IMG/VR virus record: IMGVR_UViG_3300022752_000364
Coordinates: 1-25,093 of that record
DNA: 25,093 nt
DNA from: a virus
Reading direction: 5' to 3' (one strand)
Of the stretch, positions 14,910 through 23,825 are shown piece after piece; positions within the stretch are counted from its first letter, which is position 1; every line of letters begins with the position of its first letter. The notes beneath the pieces were generated by a model, which worked only from the letters and a program-made list of their open reading frames with translations, searched no databases and was not told the origin of the DNA. The translations under genes and the position numbers were made by a program.

Positions 14910-16722
<1,813 letters not shown>

Positions 16723-16731
16723 GATTGACCT

Positions 16732-17820
16732 ATGAAAGTAGCAGTCTATACAATCGCTTTAAATGAAGCAAAGCACATCAAGCGCTGGTACGAGTCAGCC
16801 AAAGATGCAGATTATCTGCTGATTGCAGATACTGGATCTACTGATGGAACAGCAGAGCTTGCTCGCAGTCTAGGTATAAAAGTAGTTGAAATTTCAATTA
16901 AACCTTGGCGCTTTGATGATGCTCGTAACTACGCGTTAATGAGTCTGCCATACGATATTGATTACTGCATCTCTATGGATGCAGATGAGATCTTAACTTC
17001 AGGATGGAGGGCAGAACTTCAGAAGGCATATGATGCCAGAGGCGACAAGCTGCCAAGACCTAAGCACAAACTGGTTACAGACTTTGATGCTGCTGGAAAT
17101 CCAACGGTTGACTTCTATGCTAACCGTATTCATCCACGATTTGGTTACAGATGGCGACATCCTATCCACGAAGTGATCGTGCCTTACGAGAAAGATCTGA
17201 CAGAGACTTTCTTTGAGATAGGTTTGCAGATCCACCATCATCCTGACAACGACAAGTCTCGTGGTCAGTATCTACCAATGCTAGAGATGGCAGTAGATGA
17301 AGAACCTTTCAATGCACGTAACTTGTATTATTACGCAAGAGAGTTGTTCTTCCACAAGCAGTACTTGGAAGCAAAGCTAGTTTTTGAAGAGTACCTCAAG
17401 TACACCAAGTACCCAGGTGAGAAGTCATACGCACTTCGGTACCTAGCAAAGTGTGATCCTAAGAATGCTGAGAAGCATCTTAAAGAATCTATAAAAACTT
17501 TATACTGTAGAGAAAATGTATTGGCACTTGCCAATCATTACTACATCACCAAAGAGTGGAAGAAGTGTCTAAAGACTTCCCTTGAAGGTATTGAGATTAA
17601 AGAACGGCTTAATGATTTTATGTCCGAGGAATGGGCATATGGTCATATGGCATATGACTTAGTTGCTATCAGTGCGTGGCAATTAGAGCAATGGGAAGAT
17701 GCACTGCGCTACGGTGAGATTGCGCTTGAAATGTCACCACACGACGAACGACTACAAAACAACGTCAAGTTCTATAGGAGCAAAATAGATGAGCTACACA
17801 TTCGCTCAGATGGTGGATGA
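16732..17820 (+). CDS. Family 2 glycosyltransferase with C-terminal helical (TPR-like) region, 362 aa
   Basis: N-terminal GT-A domain of family 2: MKVAVYTIALNEAKHIKRWY, then LLIADTGSTDGTAELARSLG (nucleotide-binding D33 and D38) and the metal-binding SMDADEIL with D83-x-D85. It transfers a sugar from a nucleotide sugar; donor and acceptor cannot be read from sequence. From about residue 180 the protein is helical with repeated Tyr/Ala/Leu patterns (NLYYYARELFFHKQYLEAKL; HYYITKEWKKCLKTSLEGIE), like TPR repeats that often follow this domain and may hold the acceptor. It is 9 nt downstream of the collagen-like fibre and overlaps the connector gene start by 32 nt. The obvious candidate acceptor is the Thr-rich fibre, but lipid or cell-wall targets remain possible. 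Confidence 0.88.
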   Translation: MKVAVYTIALNEAKHIKRWYESAKDADYLLIADTGSTDGTAELARSLGIKVVEISIKPWRFDDARNYALMSLPYDIDYCISMDADEILTSGWRAELQKAYDARGDKLPRPKHKLVTDFDAAGNPTVDFYANRIHPRFGYRWRHPIHEVIVPYEKDLTETFFEIGLQIHHHPDNDKSRGQYLPMLEMAVDEEPFNARNLYYYARELFFHKQYLEAKLVFEEYLKYTKYPGEKSYALRYLAKCDPKNAEKHLKESIKTLYCRENVLALANHYYITKEWKKCLKTSLEGIEIKERLNDFMSEEWAYGHMAYDLVAISAWQLEQWEDALRYGEIALEMSPHDERLQNNVKFYRSKIDELHIRSDGG

Positions 17821-18703: not shown

Positions 18704-19486
18704 ATGCAAGTTAGAAAATATAGCTCAATCTCGCAAGATACAACCCTTGCAGCCGGTGGTATCAACTCAGGTGCTACATCAATGACGGTAGCAACTGGTA
18801 CTGGTAACTCACTTATGGGTGGCATCTCGCTGACGGCAGGAGATACATTTCAAGTAGCCATTGACCCAGATACAGTCAACGAAGAACTTGTCTTTATTAC
18901 CGCTCAATCTGGAGATGTCTTTACTATCACTCGTGCACGTGCTGGAACATCAGCAATCGCTCACGCAGCAGGAGCCACAGTACGCCACGTACTATCAAGT
19001 GATGACCTTAACTACTTTAACACCACAAGCCCAGCATCATTAGCACTTGCTAAAGGTAGCATCACAGTTGCTACAGGAAACCAAGCAGTGGCAGGACTTG
19101 CAGTAGGAACAAATGATTATGTTCTTACAGCAGACTCTGCTCAGGCAACTGGTGTCAAGTGGGCAGCAGCACCTACAACTAGCCTTAACCTCACCTTCAA
19201 CGCACAGACTGGTACTACATATACTCTAGTATCCGGAGATGTCAACAAGTTAGTTACTCTTAATAATGCTAATGCAATAACAGTAACTGTACCTAATGGA
19301 ATTTTTACATCAGGACAACAAATCAATTTACAACAAATTGGAGTAGGACAAGTAACTGTGGCTTCTGACGGAACAACAACAATTACATCTACCCCTGGTT
19401 TAAAGCTGCGTGCTCAATACTCAGCCGCAACCTTGATTTGCACAGGAACTAATACATTTACTTTAATAGGAGATATCTCAGCGTGA
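18704..19486 (+). CDS. Tail fibre-like protein sharing the C-terminal domain of the collagen-like fibre, 260 aa
   Basis: Residues 1-100 or so form a beta-rich N-terminal domain of a type common in phage fibres (AIDPDTVNEELVFITAQSGD; TITRARAGTSAIAHAAGATV), likely the virion attachment part. Next is a linker with VGTNDYVLTADSAQATGVKW. From L163 to the end the sequence parallels the last 98 residues or so of the collagen-like fibre: NAQTG, VTVP, Q-x-N-x-x-Q-x-G-x-GQ, TPGLKLR, SAATLI and L-x-GD-x-SA recur in order. AAGGA upstream of the ATG gives a ribosome binding site. The stop overlaps the next gene by 4 nt (GTGA). Probably a fibre component; the shared domain may trimerise or bind receptor. 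Confidence 0.8.
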   Translation: MQVRKYSSISQDTTLAAGGINSGATSMTVATGTGNSLMGGISLTAGDTFQVAIDPDTVNEELVFITAQSGDVFTITRARAGTSAIAHAAGATVRHVLSSDDLNYFNTTSPASLALAKGSITVATGNQAVAGLAVGTNDYVLTADSAQATGVKWAAAPTTSLNLTFNAQTGTTYTLVSGDVNKLVTLNNANAITVTVPNGIFTSGQQINLQQIGVGQVTVASDGTTTITSTPGLKLRAQYSAATLICTGTNTFTLIGDISA

Positions 19487-20655
19487 GAATATTAGGAGTA
19501 GTCGCATCACGTGACGGTGGCACACCTACCGCACCTACAATCGGTACAGCAACTGCATCAGGATCTACTGCTGCAACTGTTACATATACAGCATCTACTT
19601 ATACTGGTAAGGGAGCAGCTACTTATACCGCCACATCTAGTCCAGGTGGATTTACAGGAACAGGCGCAAGCCCTATTACAGTTTCAGGATTAACTGCTGG
19701 AACCGCTTATACATTTACAGTTACAGCAACATCTACTACAGGTCAGACTGCAACATCAGCTGCATCTAACTCTGTAACTCCTGTTAGTGCTTATACTCTT
19801 GTTGCAACAATAAATACTACTACAACTTATACAGTTCCTTCAGGTAAAACTGAAATTGCTTTTGTTGGAATCAGTGCTGGTGGAGCGGGTAGTCGTACTC
19901 CAGAATCACCACCATCAGTTGCAACTGGTGGTGCTGGTGGTGGTGGTTCAGGAAAAGCATTTATTCTTAAAAATGTTGCAACATCAGCAGGTACAAATTA
20001 TTTAATTACTATTGGTGCTGGTGGAACAAAAGGAGCAGCAGGTTATAATCCACCAAGTGCTGGTAATGCAGGAGGACAATTAACCATCGGAAACATTTTA
20101 ACTGCTAATGGTGGAAATGCTGGAGCAATTAGTACTTACAACAACTCATCAGGAGGAGTTGGAGGAAACATTGGTACCTTAACTTATAATACAGGAACTC
20201 TTGAGGCGCAATCTAATACAGGTGCAGGTGGAAGAGGCGGAAACGGTATAGTTCAAAATACTGCCGTTACCGCAAATCCAGGTATCACTGGTGAAGCAGG
20301 TACTACTCTTAATTCAAATGAATCTGGTATTTCTTCTTATCTAGCAGGTGGTGGAGGAAGCGGTGGTTCTGGCGGTGTTAGAAATAATGGAAACACAGGT
20401 TCAATAACAGGTGCTTCATTAGTAAATGGTGGTTCCCCATCTGGTGGCGCTGGTGGATACGGAGGAAACATTAATAATAATCACGGAATTGTAAATACTT
20501 TTGTTGGCACAACTTCAGCCAATGGTGCTGGAGGAGGTGGAGGAGGAATGTCAGGTGGTTTTGAATTTCTTGAAGCAGGCTGTGGAATTTATTACCCAGG
20601 AACTGCTAATGTACAATCTGGTGGCGATGGTCAAGTGTTAGTTTACGTGAGGTAA
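19483..20655 (+). CDS. FN3 plus glycine-rich tail fibre protein, 390 aa
   Basis: GTG start overlapping the previous TGA by 4 nt. Residues 13-100 form a fibronectin type III-like domain (ITVSGLTAGTAYTFTVTATS near its end, then NSVTP). A bridge with TYTVPSGKTEIAFVGISAGG leads into a glycine-rich domain covering about residues 125-390. This part has many Gly runs (GGAGGGGSGKAF, LAGGGGSGGSGG, GAGGGGGGMSGG) and ends QSGGDGQVLVYVR. The layout matches glycine-rich phage fibre or adhesin tips, where poly-Gly helices carry variable recognition loops. The likely role is receptor binding. Base composition falls towards the 3' end, leading into the AT-rich genes that follow. Confidence 0.84.
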   Translation: MRILGVVASRDGGTPTAPTIGTATASGSTAATVTYTASTYTGKGAATYTATSSPGGFTGTGASPITVSGLTAGTAYTFTVTATSTTGQTATSAASNSVTPVSAYTLVATINTTTTYTVPSGKTEIAFVGISAGGAGSRTPESPPSVATGGAGGGGSGKAFILKNVATSAGTNYLITIGAGGTKGAAGYNPPSAGNAGGQLTIGNILTANGGNAGAISTYNNSSGGVGGNIGTLTYNTGTLEAQSNTGAGGRGGNGIVQNTAVTANPGITGEAGTTLNSNESGISSYLAGGGGSGGSGGVRNNGNTGSITGASLVNGGSPSGGAGGYGGNINNNHGIVNTFVGTTSANGAGGGGGGMSGGFEFLEAGCGIYYPGTANVQSGGDGQVLVYVR

Positions 20656-20660
20656 TTATT

Positions 20661-20969
20661 ATGGCAAATTATGCTTTTATTAAAAATAACATTGTTACTA
20701 ATATTGCAGTTTTTGAAGATGATGTTACAGAAGATATCCTTGATTTATTTAGGATACATCATAAAGCTGATTTAATATCTCTATGTGACGAAAATTCTTG
20801 TATAGGTGGGGATTATATAGATAATCAATTTAGATCTTTAAGACCTTATCCTTCTTGGATTTGGGATAAAGAAAAGAAAAATTGGATATCACCAACCCCT
20901 ATGCCAGAAAATGATAATTTTTACTATTGGGATGAAGAAATATTAAATTGGGTGGTAGTATCCTCCTAA
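20661..20969 (+). CDS. Small fibre-associated protein of cyanophage/pelagiphage type, 102 aa
   Basis: Begins MANYAFIKNNIVTNIAVFED and ends with two Trp-rich motifs: PYPSWIWDKEKKNWISPTPM and NFYYWDEEILNWVVV. The pattern 'PYPSW...W..P.P.P......Y.WDE....W' recalls short accessory proteins near fibre genes in marine cyanophages and pelagiphages, where they resemble tail-fibre-associated or assembly proteins. The DNA is markedly AT-rich, with many AAT, TTA and ATA codons, unlike the capsid genes. GAGG before the ATG (20649-20652) is a usable SD. Role inferred; family by memory. Confidence 0.75.
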   Translation: MANYAFIKNNIVTNIAVFEDDVTEDILDLFRIHHKADLISLCDENSCIGGDYIDNQFRSLRPYPSWIWDKEKKNWISPTPMPENDNFYYWDEEILNWVVVSS

Positions 20970-20987
20970 TTCACTAAGGGGGCATTT

Positions 20988-21683
20988 ATGAAAATAATCT
21001 TTACAGATATTTATAATTTAGGTGATGCTTTAGATCAACCTAAACCAGCAAACCAAGTTATACCTGAATGGTATAAAAAAATTAACTCTTATATTTCTGG
21101 AAAAAAAATACCAACTGATACTGGAGAAGCAAATTCAACGATAAAAAAATGTATGCCTGTTTTTGATGCAATAACAGCGGGATATATTATTACATCTGCA
21201 GCAGATTTATATGTTGAAAAAAAAGAAGAAGGTTTATATTACAAATGGTCTGGTTTAGATTTAATTAGTTTTCATTCACCAGATCAAACAACTGGACACC
21301 CCGCAAAAATAAATGATGAATTAAATTCATCTCCTAAATTTATAAACCCTTGGTCTATTAAAACACCCAAAGGATATTCTGTTTTAATTATTCAACCAAT
21401 GCACCGTGAATCTCCATTTACAATTATGCCAGGTATAGTAGATACGGATACTTATACAAACCCAGTTAATTTTCCATTTACAATGAACGATAAAAATTGG
21501 GAAGGATTAATACCAGCAGGAACTCCGATTGCTCAAATTATACCTTTTAAACGAGAAAATTGGAAAATGCAAATAGGTTATGAAAAAGAAATACAAGAAA
21601 CTATAGCAATAAGAAATAAATTTAAGACAATTTTTTGGGACAGATATAAGCGTTTTTATTGGAATAAAAAAGAATACAAGTAA
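20988..21683 (+). CDS. Accessory protein of cyanophage type, 231 aa (possible DUF6065-like beta-barrel)
   Basis: Starts MKIIFTDIYNLGDALDQPKP after a clear AAGGGGG site (20977-20983). Core motifs: INPWSIKTPKGYSVLIIQPM, GIVDTDTYTNPVNFPFTM and GLIPAGTPIAQIIPFKRENW. This order (NPW-x-I-x-TP-x-GYS, VDTD-x-Y-x-x-P-x-NFPF, P-x-GTPIAQ-x-IP) resembles a phage family I believe is DUF6065, beta-rich and of unknown function. The ending is basic and aromatic (FWDRYKRFYWNKKEYK). It is very AT-rich: bases 21061-21120 count to 14 G/C of 60. With the 102-aa gene it looks like a recently acquired pair. I do not assign a function. Confidence 0.75.
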   Translation: MKIIFTDIYNLGDALDQPKPANQVIPEWYKKINSYISGKKIPTDTGEANSTIKKCMPVFDAITAGYIITSAADLYVEKKEEGLYYKWSGLDLISFHSPDQTTGHPAKINDELNSSPKFINPWSIKTPKGYSVLIIQPMHRESPFTIMPGIVDTDTYTNPVNFPFTMNDKNWEGLIPAGTPIAQIIPFKRENWKMQIGYEKEIQETIAIRNKFKTIFWDRYKRFYWNKKEYK

Positions 21684-21705
21684 AACTTAATAAGCATTAC
21701 CACCT

Positions 21706-21733
21706 GAGCCTGTGGTTAAACGGCTCTATTTTT
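21706..21733 (+). terminator. Candidate Rho-independent terminator after the AT-rich genes
   Basis: GAGCC (21706-21710) pairs with GGCTC (21722-21726) around an 11-nt loop, followed by TATTTTT (21727-21733). The stem is only 5 bp, so it is weak. It lies 22 nt after the 231-aa gene and could separate the imported pair from the tail gene. Confidence 0.45.
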
Positions 21734-21753
21734 ATGCAACAAAAGGGAGCTGC

Positions 21754-21852
21754 TTGTATAAGTGCGCTATTAGAGGCTGTACTGCATACGCTGTAATTAA
21801 AGGAATGTGCGCTAAGCACGATAAGCAATATAGAAAATCTAAGGAGATCTAG
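21754..21852 (+). CDS. Zinc-knuckle micro-protein, 32 aa
   Basis: A 32-residue product with TTG start, preceded by AAAAGGGAG (21741-21749) 4 nt upstream, the same spacing as the TTG-started gene at 23835. The protein (MYKCAIRGCTAYAVIKGMCA, then KHDKQYRKSKEI) has C4, C9, C19 and H22 in the pattern C-x4-C-x9-C-x2-H. With the G-x-C-x2-H turn and following basic residues, this is the short zinc finger frequent in phage proteins and next to HNH nucleases. Its TAG overlaps the GTG of the tail gene by one base, the same TAGTG junction as at 4229-4233. Metal binding is well supported by pattern; function is unknown. Confidence 0.66.
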   Translation: MYKCAIRGCTAYAVIKGMCAKHDKQYRKSKEI

Positions 21853-23825
21853 TGGCATCATATCCACCGAACATTACTGAAGCGATTCCAGTAGCAGTAG
21901 GTAACCCACAGAACACACCTACATATGCTGCAACTGGCGTTGCCTATGACATCTCTATTGCAGGTCAACCATTCTTCTTGCTTAACGATGACAACAATCC
22001 ATACCGTAGAGTCACAGCTCAGTACCGTAAGAATCAGGTAGATATGAGCCGTGAGCCTGGTGAGCAAACACTTACCGGTTGGTGGTTACGTTCACAGTCA
22101 TCATTCCATCTAGGTCAGGGAATCACATTCTTTGAGCCTACTCAGGATGAGTCGCTACGCTTTCAATACACCTATTCCAAGGGCTGTAACGTATGGGACA
22201 AGGGACAGGTAACACTACTTCCTGACACCTTTACCTCAGCTCACACGATACTAGAAGGCTTTCAAACCAACACACGTCCATTCCAGTATGCCAGATCTAT
22301 TCGCTGGTCTGGCACAGATGGCATCTTGCTACACGATGGATACCATCTTGACAAGATTGCAGTAGATGGAACTAGAACAGATTTCCAATCCTATACATCT
22401 GGAACAGATGATCCTGTCTATGGAGTATGTGATGATGGAGTCTATGCATACTGGGTTACAAATGATGTGGCATCAGGTAAGTTAGAGTTTAATAAAAAAC
22501 TACTGACAGCAGATTACACAACACCACCTACGATAATGTTTACAAAGGTAGGTATTACAGTTACCAATGCAGTCCTTGAATACACCAAGGAACGTATCGT
22601 TGCTTGTATCAATGACAAGATATATGAGATTGCAACTAACGCATCAACACTGCCTACCGCTGTCTATACACACCCAGACCAAGATGTAGTCTTTACTAGC
22701 ATTACATCAAGTGGTGCTGCAATCTATGTCTCAGCATTTTCTGGTATCCAATCTAATATCTACAAGTTCACATTAACTACTGCAGGTGCTATGCCTACGC
22801 TCACCTCTGCTATCACAGCAGCTGAAATGCCAGTAGGTGAGAAGATCTATCGCATCAACTACTACCTTGGTATCTTGGCTATTGGTACATCACTGGGTCT
22901 GCGTATAGCAGCAGTGTCAGATACCGATGGCTCTATTGCCTACGGTCCACTCATCTTTGAATCACAGCAGGCTGTCTATGATGTGTGTTTTAGAGACAAG
23001 TATCTTTGGTGTGCAACCAACGTGGATGGAAACCCAGGATTGACACGAGTCAATCTGGGCCAACAGATATCTAGCCTTGTCTATGCCTACGCTTGGGATC
23101 TCTACGATCCTGCAACCACAGGTCGCAACACTACAGCCTGTGCCTTTGCTGGATACAGCACACAAATTATCTTTACCACTGCAAAGACAGCAACCGCTGG
23201 TGCTATCTATATCCAGCATCCAACTAACCTCATTGAAGAGGGAACCTTGCGAACAGGCTACGTTCGCTATAACACATTAGAGAACAAGATCTTCAAGTAT
23301 GTAGTCCCACGTTTTGACACCTTGTATGGTGGGCTAGAGATCCTATCTGTGGACCAGTTCGGTAATGAGTTTGGTCTAGGTACCTATGCTCAGGGTTCTG
23401 AGGTAGGTCAGGTTGGTATTGCCTATCCACCAGGAGCACAGCAGTACATTGGCTTTGAGTTTATTATGAGCCGCTCTAGTACAGATGCCACCAAGGGTCC
23501 TACCTTTACTGGCTACCAGCTCAAAGTATTGCCTGCCGTTCCACGTCAGCGCCTAATCCAATACCCTTGCTCCCTGTTTGATTCAGAGTCTGACAAGTTT
23601 GGTAATAAGTCAGGCTATGACGGCGCTGCATATGAGCGTTTAAAGGCCATAGAAGCCATTGAGAGCAACGGAGATACTCTGGTGGTACAAGACTTTAGAC
23701 CACCCGGTGGTGAGACCTATACGGGAATTATAGAGGAAATTGACTTTATCAACAAAACCCCAACCGATAAGCGTTACTCAGGTTGGGGCGGTCTCTGCTT
23801 AATCACTATCCGCACTATCTCATAA
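21852..23825 (+). CDS. Large tail protein, 657 aa (probable beta-propeller tail component)
   Basis: GTG start with AAGGAG (21841-21846) 5 nt upstream. The protein is beta-rich throughout. An N-terminal segment contains EPGEQTLTGWWLRSQSSFHL and SLRFQYTYSKGCNVWDKGQV, which resembles tail proteins of actinobacteriophages. Residues of about 120-430 show successive short beta blades with Asp/Gly turns (DGILLHDGYHLDKIAVDG; GVCDDGVYAYWVTND; YLWCATNVDGNPGLTRV), suggesting a propeller. The C-terminal 200 residues form another beta domain. It resembles in size and beta content the nozzle (gp12) of T7-like phages, or a siphophage minor tail protein. It sits directly upstream of the lysis genes. Confidence 0.76.
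   Translation: MASYPPNITEAIPVAVGNPQNTPTYAATGVAYDISIAGQPFFLLNDDNNPYRRVTAQYRKNQVDMSREPGEQTLTGWWLRSQSSFHLGQGITFFEPTQDESLRFQYTYSKGCNVWDKGQVTLLPDTFTSAHTILEGFQTNTRPFQYARSIRWSGTDGILLHDGYHLDKIAVDGTRTDFQSYTSGTDDPVYGVCDDGVYAYWVTNDVASGKLEFNKKLLTADYTTPPTIMFTKVGITVTNAVLEYTKERIVACINDKIYEIATNASTLPTAVYTHPDQDVVFTSITSSGAAIYVSAFSGIQSNIYKFTLTTAGAMPTLTSAITAAEMPVGEKIYRINYYLGILAIGTSLGLRIAAVSDTDGSIAYGPLIFESQQAVYDVCFRDKYLWCATNVDGNPGLTRVNLGQQISSLVYAYAWDLYDPATTGRNTTACAFAGYSTQIIFTTAKTATAGAIYIQHPTNLIEEGTLRTGYVRYNTLENKIFKYVVPRFDTLYGGLEILSVDQFGNEFGLGTYAQGSEVGQVGIAYPPGAQQYIGFEFIMSRSSTDATKGPTFTGYQLKVLPAVPRQRLIQYPCSLFDSESDKFGNKSGYDGAAYERLKAIEAIESNGDTLVVQDFRPPGGETYTGIIEEIDFINKTPTDKRYSGWGGLCLITIRTIS

Follow-up and report, generated by a model that had tools for sequence, protein, structure and literature searches.

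The AT-rich tract at positions 20,661 to 21,683 of the window (the whole 25,093-base virus record analysed here, which encodes terminase, portal, capsid and tail genes) appears to be part of a larger block of ~1.96 kb (19,786-21,744) that we interpret, with a probability of about 0.6, as a horizontally exchanged receptor-binding cassette occupying a hypervariable slot in the genome of a freshwater actinophage. The block comprises the glycine-rich tip of a fibre gene, two small genes designated A and B, and an RNA pseudoknot. This interpretation is drawn from mosaic joints at the junction of the fn3 and glycine-rich parts of the fibre gene and again after B, from codon usage that shifts over the same stretch, from the independent movement of B and from the regular placement of A before B. 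An earlier note, made from the letters of the window, had described the tract as imported cargo linked to host recognition, and both parts of that reading are supported once the borders are corrected: the B tree conflicts with the phage backbone, the slot is hypervariable and homology is lost at both ends, and the pair is preceded by a receptor-binding-type fibre and includes a gene resembling a fibre chaperone. The cassette would replace the distal, host-contacting glycine-rich domain of the fibre along with its partner A and the accessory gene B, and the likely homology arms of the swap are the fn3 segment that the fibres share and the conserved stretch downstream. Genes A and B, the two fibre genes, the propeller-like gene and the pseudoknot all lie on the plus strand.

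Classification of the phage as a freshwater actinophage is based on sequence, because the 657-aa tail protein encoded at 21852-23825 is related to proteins of Streptomyces phages and of the cultured Planktophila phages LanE43-AprE7 and LanE43-AprF5 (46% identity; OX376640 and OX376641, PMC10202952). Its hosts are probably of the Nanopelagicales type.

Base composition and borders of the block

The tract at 20661-21683 has a GC content of 29.2%, the minimum of all 1,023-bp intervals in the record, and the lowest non-overlapping interval elsewhere has 39.6%. The AT-richness reported in the earlier note is thus confirmed, and its hand counts (14 G/C at 21061-21120 and 27 at 22081-22140, each out of 60) are exact. 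Relative to the remaining genes of the window, A and B together have an overall GC z of -5.3, and their GC3 of 0.148 compares with 0.399 expected for the same amino acids under the codon usage of the window (z = -10.4; 0 of 5,000 simulations were equally low). The shift in codons was also as claimed, with values in the island versus the rest of 0.75 versus 0.46 for AAT, 0.87 versus 0.21 for TTA and 0.51 versus 0.09 for ATA; AAA is likewise shifted (0.87 versus 0.26).

When each gene was tested against codon usage in all other parts of the window, the fibre gene immediately upstream (19483-20655) was found to be shifted too (GC3 z = -7.2), a shift that is hidden in raw GC because glycine codons start with GG. 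Pfam domains divide this gene into an fn3 domain (~19531-19770) followed by a glycine-rich tip (Gly_rich_2, ~19813-20649). The codon shift sets in within the gene at ~19,630-19,785, grows at the end of fn3, becomes extreme in the glycine-rich part and stops with B, the codon usage of the downstream propeller-like gene being normal.

The borders of homology were located on both sides. On the left, at least 15 relatives cease to align in nucleotide sequence at 19781-19786, at the fn3/glycine-rich junction and approximately where the codon shift starts; in protein, homology of the fibre ends at about residue 100, and of the 50 loci with significant matches, 28 have alignments that reach no further than residue 115. 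On the right, the joint lies at 21744-21754: three relatives bearing B (L163, L179 and L183) align through B and the element downstream of it up to 21,743/21,744, and relatives lacking B align from 21,754. These breaks delimit the imported block given above. The "two-gene island" of the earlier note was therefore right about an AT-rich A and B and wrong about extent, since the block takes in the glycine-rich fibre tip. The tip, used as a query for an unbiased test of co-occurrence with A and B, found no relatives, and a DNA-level comparison of the A-B pair with sequenced phages gave nothing beyond short chance matches.

A hypervariable slot in the tail region

The slot is bounded on the left by a conserved fibre or virion gene (18704-19486; PHROG tail fibre/virion families) and on the right by the gene for the propeller-like tail protein (21852-23825; phrog_11667, E = 1.5e-155), both of which are found in relatives. 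In relatives, the slot, taken from the fibre gene at 18704 to the propeller-like gene, spans 1.2-6.0 kb and holds fibre-tip, HNH-endonuclease-like and small genes in differing numbers. Among 72 non-redundant relatives collected without B as bait, an A-like gene is present in 30 and B in 13, and every one of the 13 B carriers has A (Fisher p = 1.7e-6). In L108/L145, the same site has an A-like gene together with a B of 34% identity that lies on the opposite strand. Among 52 phage loci, an A-like gene lies within 1.6 kb upstream of B in 33 and directly adjoins it in 26, and the A-like genes preceding B often come straight after a fibre gene of the glycine-rich or fn3 type.

B is absent from the closest backbones, whose adaptor proteins are 87-97% identical to that of the window (L113, L121/L133, L123/L131 and L094/L134). 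In a tree of 69 proteins, B of the window is instead sister to B of a 95.9-kb phage, in whose record no adaptor was seen and whose capsid protein matches at just 33%. Constraining B from phages of the same backbone to one clade was rejected (AU p = 1.3e-9), so B moves independently of the phage backbone. Grouping B of the window with B of L143 alone was not rejected (p = 0.49), and this counts against the cassette model. According to the earlier note, import would be refuted if close relatives carried the pair at the same site with matching codon usage and tree; some relatives do carry it there (the 13 above), but their trees disagree and B is missing from the majority of close relatives. Its description of the proteins as being of "cyanophage/pelagiphage character" holds only loosely: the nearest kin of B are from uncultivated freshwater phages (66% identity), followed by haloarchaeal viruses (~40%) and cyanophages (~26%).

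HNH-endonuclease-like genes sit between consecutive fibre-tip genes in the slots of eight relatives (L084, L088, L091, L101, L109, L121, L122 and L123), which suggests that homing endonucleases drive the exchange of modules. A mini-ORF of ~32 aa encoding a zinc finger (21754-21852, TTG start, weak DUF5763 match), absent from the list of open reading frames, has a stop codon that overlaps the GTG start of the propeller-like gene and is 68-83% conserved in five relatives (L084, L088, L090, L091 and L122). Upstream of the slot, a collagen-like gene with GPTGATGS repeats and raised GC (53%) occupies 15253-16722, with a glycosyltransferase gene next to it at 16732-17820.

Gene A resembles a tail-fibre chaperone

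Gene A (20661-20969) encodes a 102-aa probable tail-fibre chaperone or assembly protein belonging to phrog_7759 (E = 1e-8), a profile matched by 39 of the 49 members of the A family. It starts 5 bp past the end of the glycine-rich fibre gene, a chaperone-like gene order that is repeated in many loci. The AlphaFold model of A (pLDDT 96.9) has a beta C-terminal half, and its best PDB match, the one that makes sense, is 7ypx_a (probability 0.99, E = 0.09, TM 0.45 over 64 columns), a chain of 162 residues that we take by its length to be gp25 of cyanophage Pam3. The match offers a possible, weak counterpart in A of the N-terminal beta-sandwich domain of such chaperones. Both the weakness of this match and the lack of the C-terminal helical trimerisation domain count against the cassette model, and because that domain is missing we do not file A as a member of the Tfa family. 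Sequence-profile searches of the PDB with A, and likewise with B, returned nothing significant. By position and partly by predicted fold, A resembles a chaperone of the Tfa/gp25 type and may work like one; A would then serve as chaperone or assembly factor of the glycine-rich tip, as gp25 does for gp24 in Pam3.

Gene B has a dUTPase-like predicted fold

Gene B (20988-21683) encodes a 231-aa member of phrog_7084 (E = 5e-61) related to DUF6065. The DUF6065 profile (PF19541) does not match B of the window itself and does match 15 of 57 homologues, at best with E = 1.9e-8. The PDB matches listed for its AlphaFold model (pLDDT 93) are dUTPases and dCTP deaminases, with a best E of 1.3e-4 and a TM-score of just ~0.3, the latter counting against the cassette model. 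The score of B against the dUTPase family PF00692 (11.8 bits) is under the Pfam gathering cut-off of 22, and a single profile-profile comparison with dUTPases is weak by itself (E = 0.01). In an alignment with E. coli Dut, the Asp of motif III (GxIDxxY) is retained in the form G149-I-V-D152-T-D154, both Asp residues being present in 57 of 57 homologues, and the Gly and Gln of motif IV are invariant. The Asp of motif I (AGxDL) is missing, with hydrophobic residues in its place (A-G-Y-I-I); the PRSG of motif II is replaced by P-x-H-R-x-S in a shorter loop; and the glycine-rich tail of motif V gives way to a conserved Lys/aromatic C-terminus. From the model, we are confident that B has a dUTPase-like fold.

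The B family is broad, extending to haloarchaeal viruses, cyanophages and bacterial chromosomes; the chromosomal neighbours have no common functional theme. Homologues adjoin a tryptophan halogenase, and in cyanophages also a 2OG-Fe(II) oxygenase (L067, L069 and L072; S-CREM1, L126; syn9, L128), a possible clue to a modification pathway. A general partnership of B with these enzymes was considered and rejected, as it occurs in cyanophages and a few viral loci and is absent from the relatives of the window. In nine loci (L002, L041, L043, L045, L050, L059, L070, L071 and L150), B occurs as tandem diverged duplicates. Our best guess is that B is an enzyme whose substrate has changed and which serves in the maturation of the fibre or virion, and a structural role is possible. 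More tentatively than for A, B could be a re-tooled dUTPase-fold protein, distinct from a canonical dUTPase, that is made with the late tail genes and acts either on the fibre itself or on some substrate, a nucleotide or small molecule, that modification of the fibre requires.

An RNA pseudoknot downstream of B

The intergenic element that follows B is an H-type RNA pseudoknot of 27 nt (21700-21726; CCAC-CT-GAGCC-T-GTGG-TTAAAC-GGCTC), in which stem S1 is formed by CCAC/GTGG and stem S2 by GAGCC/GGCTC, the last loop ending in AAAC. Searches with fixed spacing identified it in 13 of the 72 relatives, 52-73 nt ahead of the propeller match, whether or not B was present. We searched viral contigs with a pattern in which the loops and the second stem alone were specified, which gave 133 distinct matches; the unspecified first stem is fully paired in 105 of these, compared with 11 expected from shuffling and 0-1 when the position is slid. 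A spacing variant of the pattern is also often paired. In an analysis of covariation on 44 sequences, 99.5% of cells were paired and the score was 0.558 versus 0.148 for shuffled alignments (0 of 500 shuffles); the pairing test is the fairer of the two because the 44 sequences were partly chosen for pairing. Of the 105 paired elements, 102 are outside long open reading frames, 57 are within 30 nt of an upstream stop codon and 14 are ahead of a tRNA gene, mostly tRNA-Asp (13 of these at a distance of 4-14 nt). Several phages have 2-5 copies. Carriers comprise the window, other loci in our set (L011, L028, L094, L101, L163, L179, L349 and L422-L539) and S-CRM01, a cultured freshwater cyanophage with at least two (130337 and 149416), one of them ~5 nt before tRNA-Met.

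Across 297 actinobacterial genomes the pattern was matched 8 times, and 299 genomes of the Bradyrhizobium phylum gave a single, apparently chance, match. The most convincing actinobacterial matches are in two genomes of 1.3-1.4 Mb (L547 and L548), where the first stem has three of four pairs and the motif lies 85 nt after serS, ahead of tRNA-Arg and tRNA-Ser. This placement hints that the phage element may have a counterpart in hosts. No gathering match was found among the 4,227 models of Rfam (a permissive threshold gave chance-level or unrelated matches), and we found no description of the element in open papers, which does not by itself prove novelty.

The earlier note had referred to a terminator-like hairpin after the pair; a structured element is indeed present there, in the form of a covarying pseudoknot rather than a simple hairpin. 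An ordinary Rho-independent terminator would account for the position of the element 17 nt past the stop codon of B, for the T-rich run that follows it in the window and for the recovery of the GAGCC/GGCTC stem by a simple fold (z = -2.0). However, two interleaved helices covary, the T-run is not conserved and elsewhere the element lies just ahead of tRNA genes, an unlikely site for termination, and on this covariation and context we reject the simple hairpin and consider a terminator improbable. We propose tentatively, at slightly less than even odds, that the pseudoknot represents an uncatalogued class of phage RNA whose inferred role would be to take part in the processing of transcripts or to block exonucleases where a gene borders on another gene or on a tRNA gene, and which incidentally marks the right border of the slot. 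With similar reservation, the class may cover freshwater actinobacterial phages, at least one freshwater cyanophage and many uncultivated phages, in addition to the lookalikes in the two small actinobacterial genomes.

Alternative explanations

The AT-richness of the pair could result from selection for expression or RNA structure on vertically inherited genes that are ordinary in their lineage. Consistent with this idea, B is AT-richer than its neighbours in nearly all of 48 viral loci (mean GC 34% versus 42% for other genes), and A and B of relatives at the same site are AT-rich as well. AT-richness is therefore a habit of the family across phages, which taken alone neither proves recent import nor dates the transfer. 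Selection does not account for the sharp drop in homology at both ends of the block, the lack of B in the closest backbones or the conflict between the B tree and the backbone, and most chromosomal homologues (chiefly from Alphaproteobacteria) match the GC of their own locus, with exceptions such as L239. We regard this explanation as already disfavoured and very unlikely.

A less remote, though still rather unlikely, alternative is that B is simply cargo, an active enzyme of the dUTPase/dCTP-deaminase superfamily that resides in a recombination-prone late locus and plays no part in host recognition. The predicted dUTPase fold and the invariant polar residues, including D152, D154, Q183 and R189, fit such an enzyme, as do the ribonucleotide reductase gene adjoining a haloarchaeal-virus homologue, the halogenase and 2OG oxygenase genes next to cyanophage homologues and the occurrence of stand-alone homologues on chromosomes. 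Against it, three of the dUTPase motifs are lost and B accompanies a fibre gene and A across many unrelated backbones, and we favor the receptor-binding cassette.

If so, the AT-rich block probably helps decide the bacterium to which the phage attaches. The analysis maps the joints for the exchange of the host-contacting portion of the fibre in lake actinophages, and shows that the slot contains a small gene resembling a chaperone gene, joined in about one-fifth of relatives by a gene for a dUTPase-fold protein. This provides a testable model of host-range change for viruses of highly abundant freshwater bacteria, for which the cultured phages E7 and F5 exist. The pseudoknot is a separate lead, being a tiny RNA structure that is common to many aquatic phages and has no Rfam entry; it and the dUTPase-fold protein B are the parts most worth following.

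Comparison with known systems

In cyanophage Pam3, gp25 is the chaperone of the tail fibre gp24 (PDB 7YPX, PMC9608196). In the window, as in Pam3, a small gene comes immediately after a glycine-rich fibre gene, and the product of this small gene, A, has a weak fold match to a chain of the length of gp25, whereas A has no significant sequence similarity to gp25 and is without its helical trimerisation domain. B is a clear member of phrog_7084 and shares with the DUF6065/dUTPase superfamily the fold, the motif III Asp and the motif IV Gly and Gln; it differs from the dUTPases of PF00692 in having lost motifs I, II and V and in its score below gathering. LanE43-AprE7 and LanE43-AprF5 match the gene order of the window, including an A-like gene in the slot ahead of the propeller-like gene, but their proteins are only ~46-50% identical and neither B nor the pseudoknot was found in them. 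The 8-kb island described in these two phages (PMC10202952) was considered as a counterpart of the slot and rejected, as that island is flanked by the portal and capsid genes. Finally, the slot differs between close relatives and holds host-recognition genes, as do the metaviromic islands of Mizuno, Ghai and Rodriguez-Valera (2014; PMC3909814), with which it shares a hypervariable region and intragenic variation as well; in contrast to those islands, the joints are mapped here, one to the boundary of a domain and the other to an intergenic element, and the cassette includes a dUTPase-fold gene.
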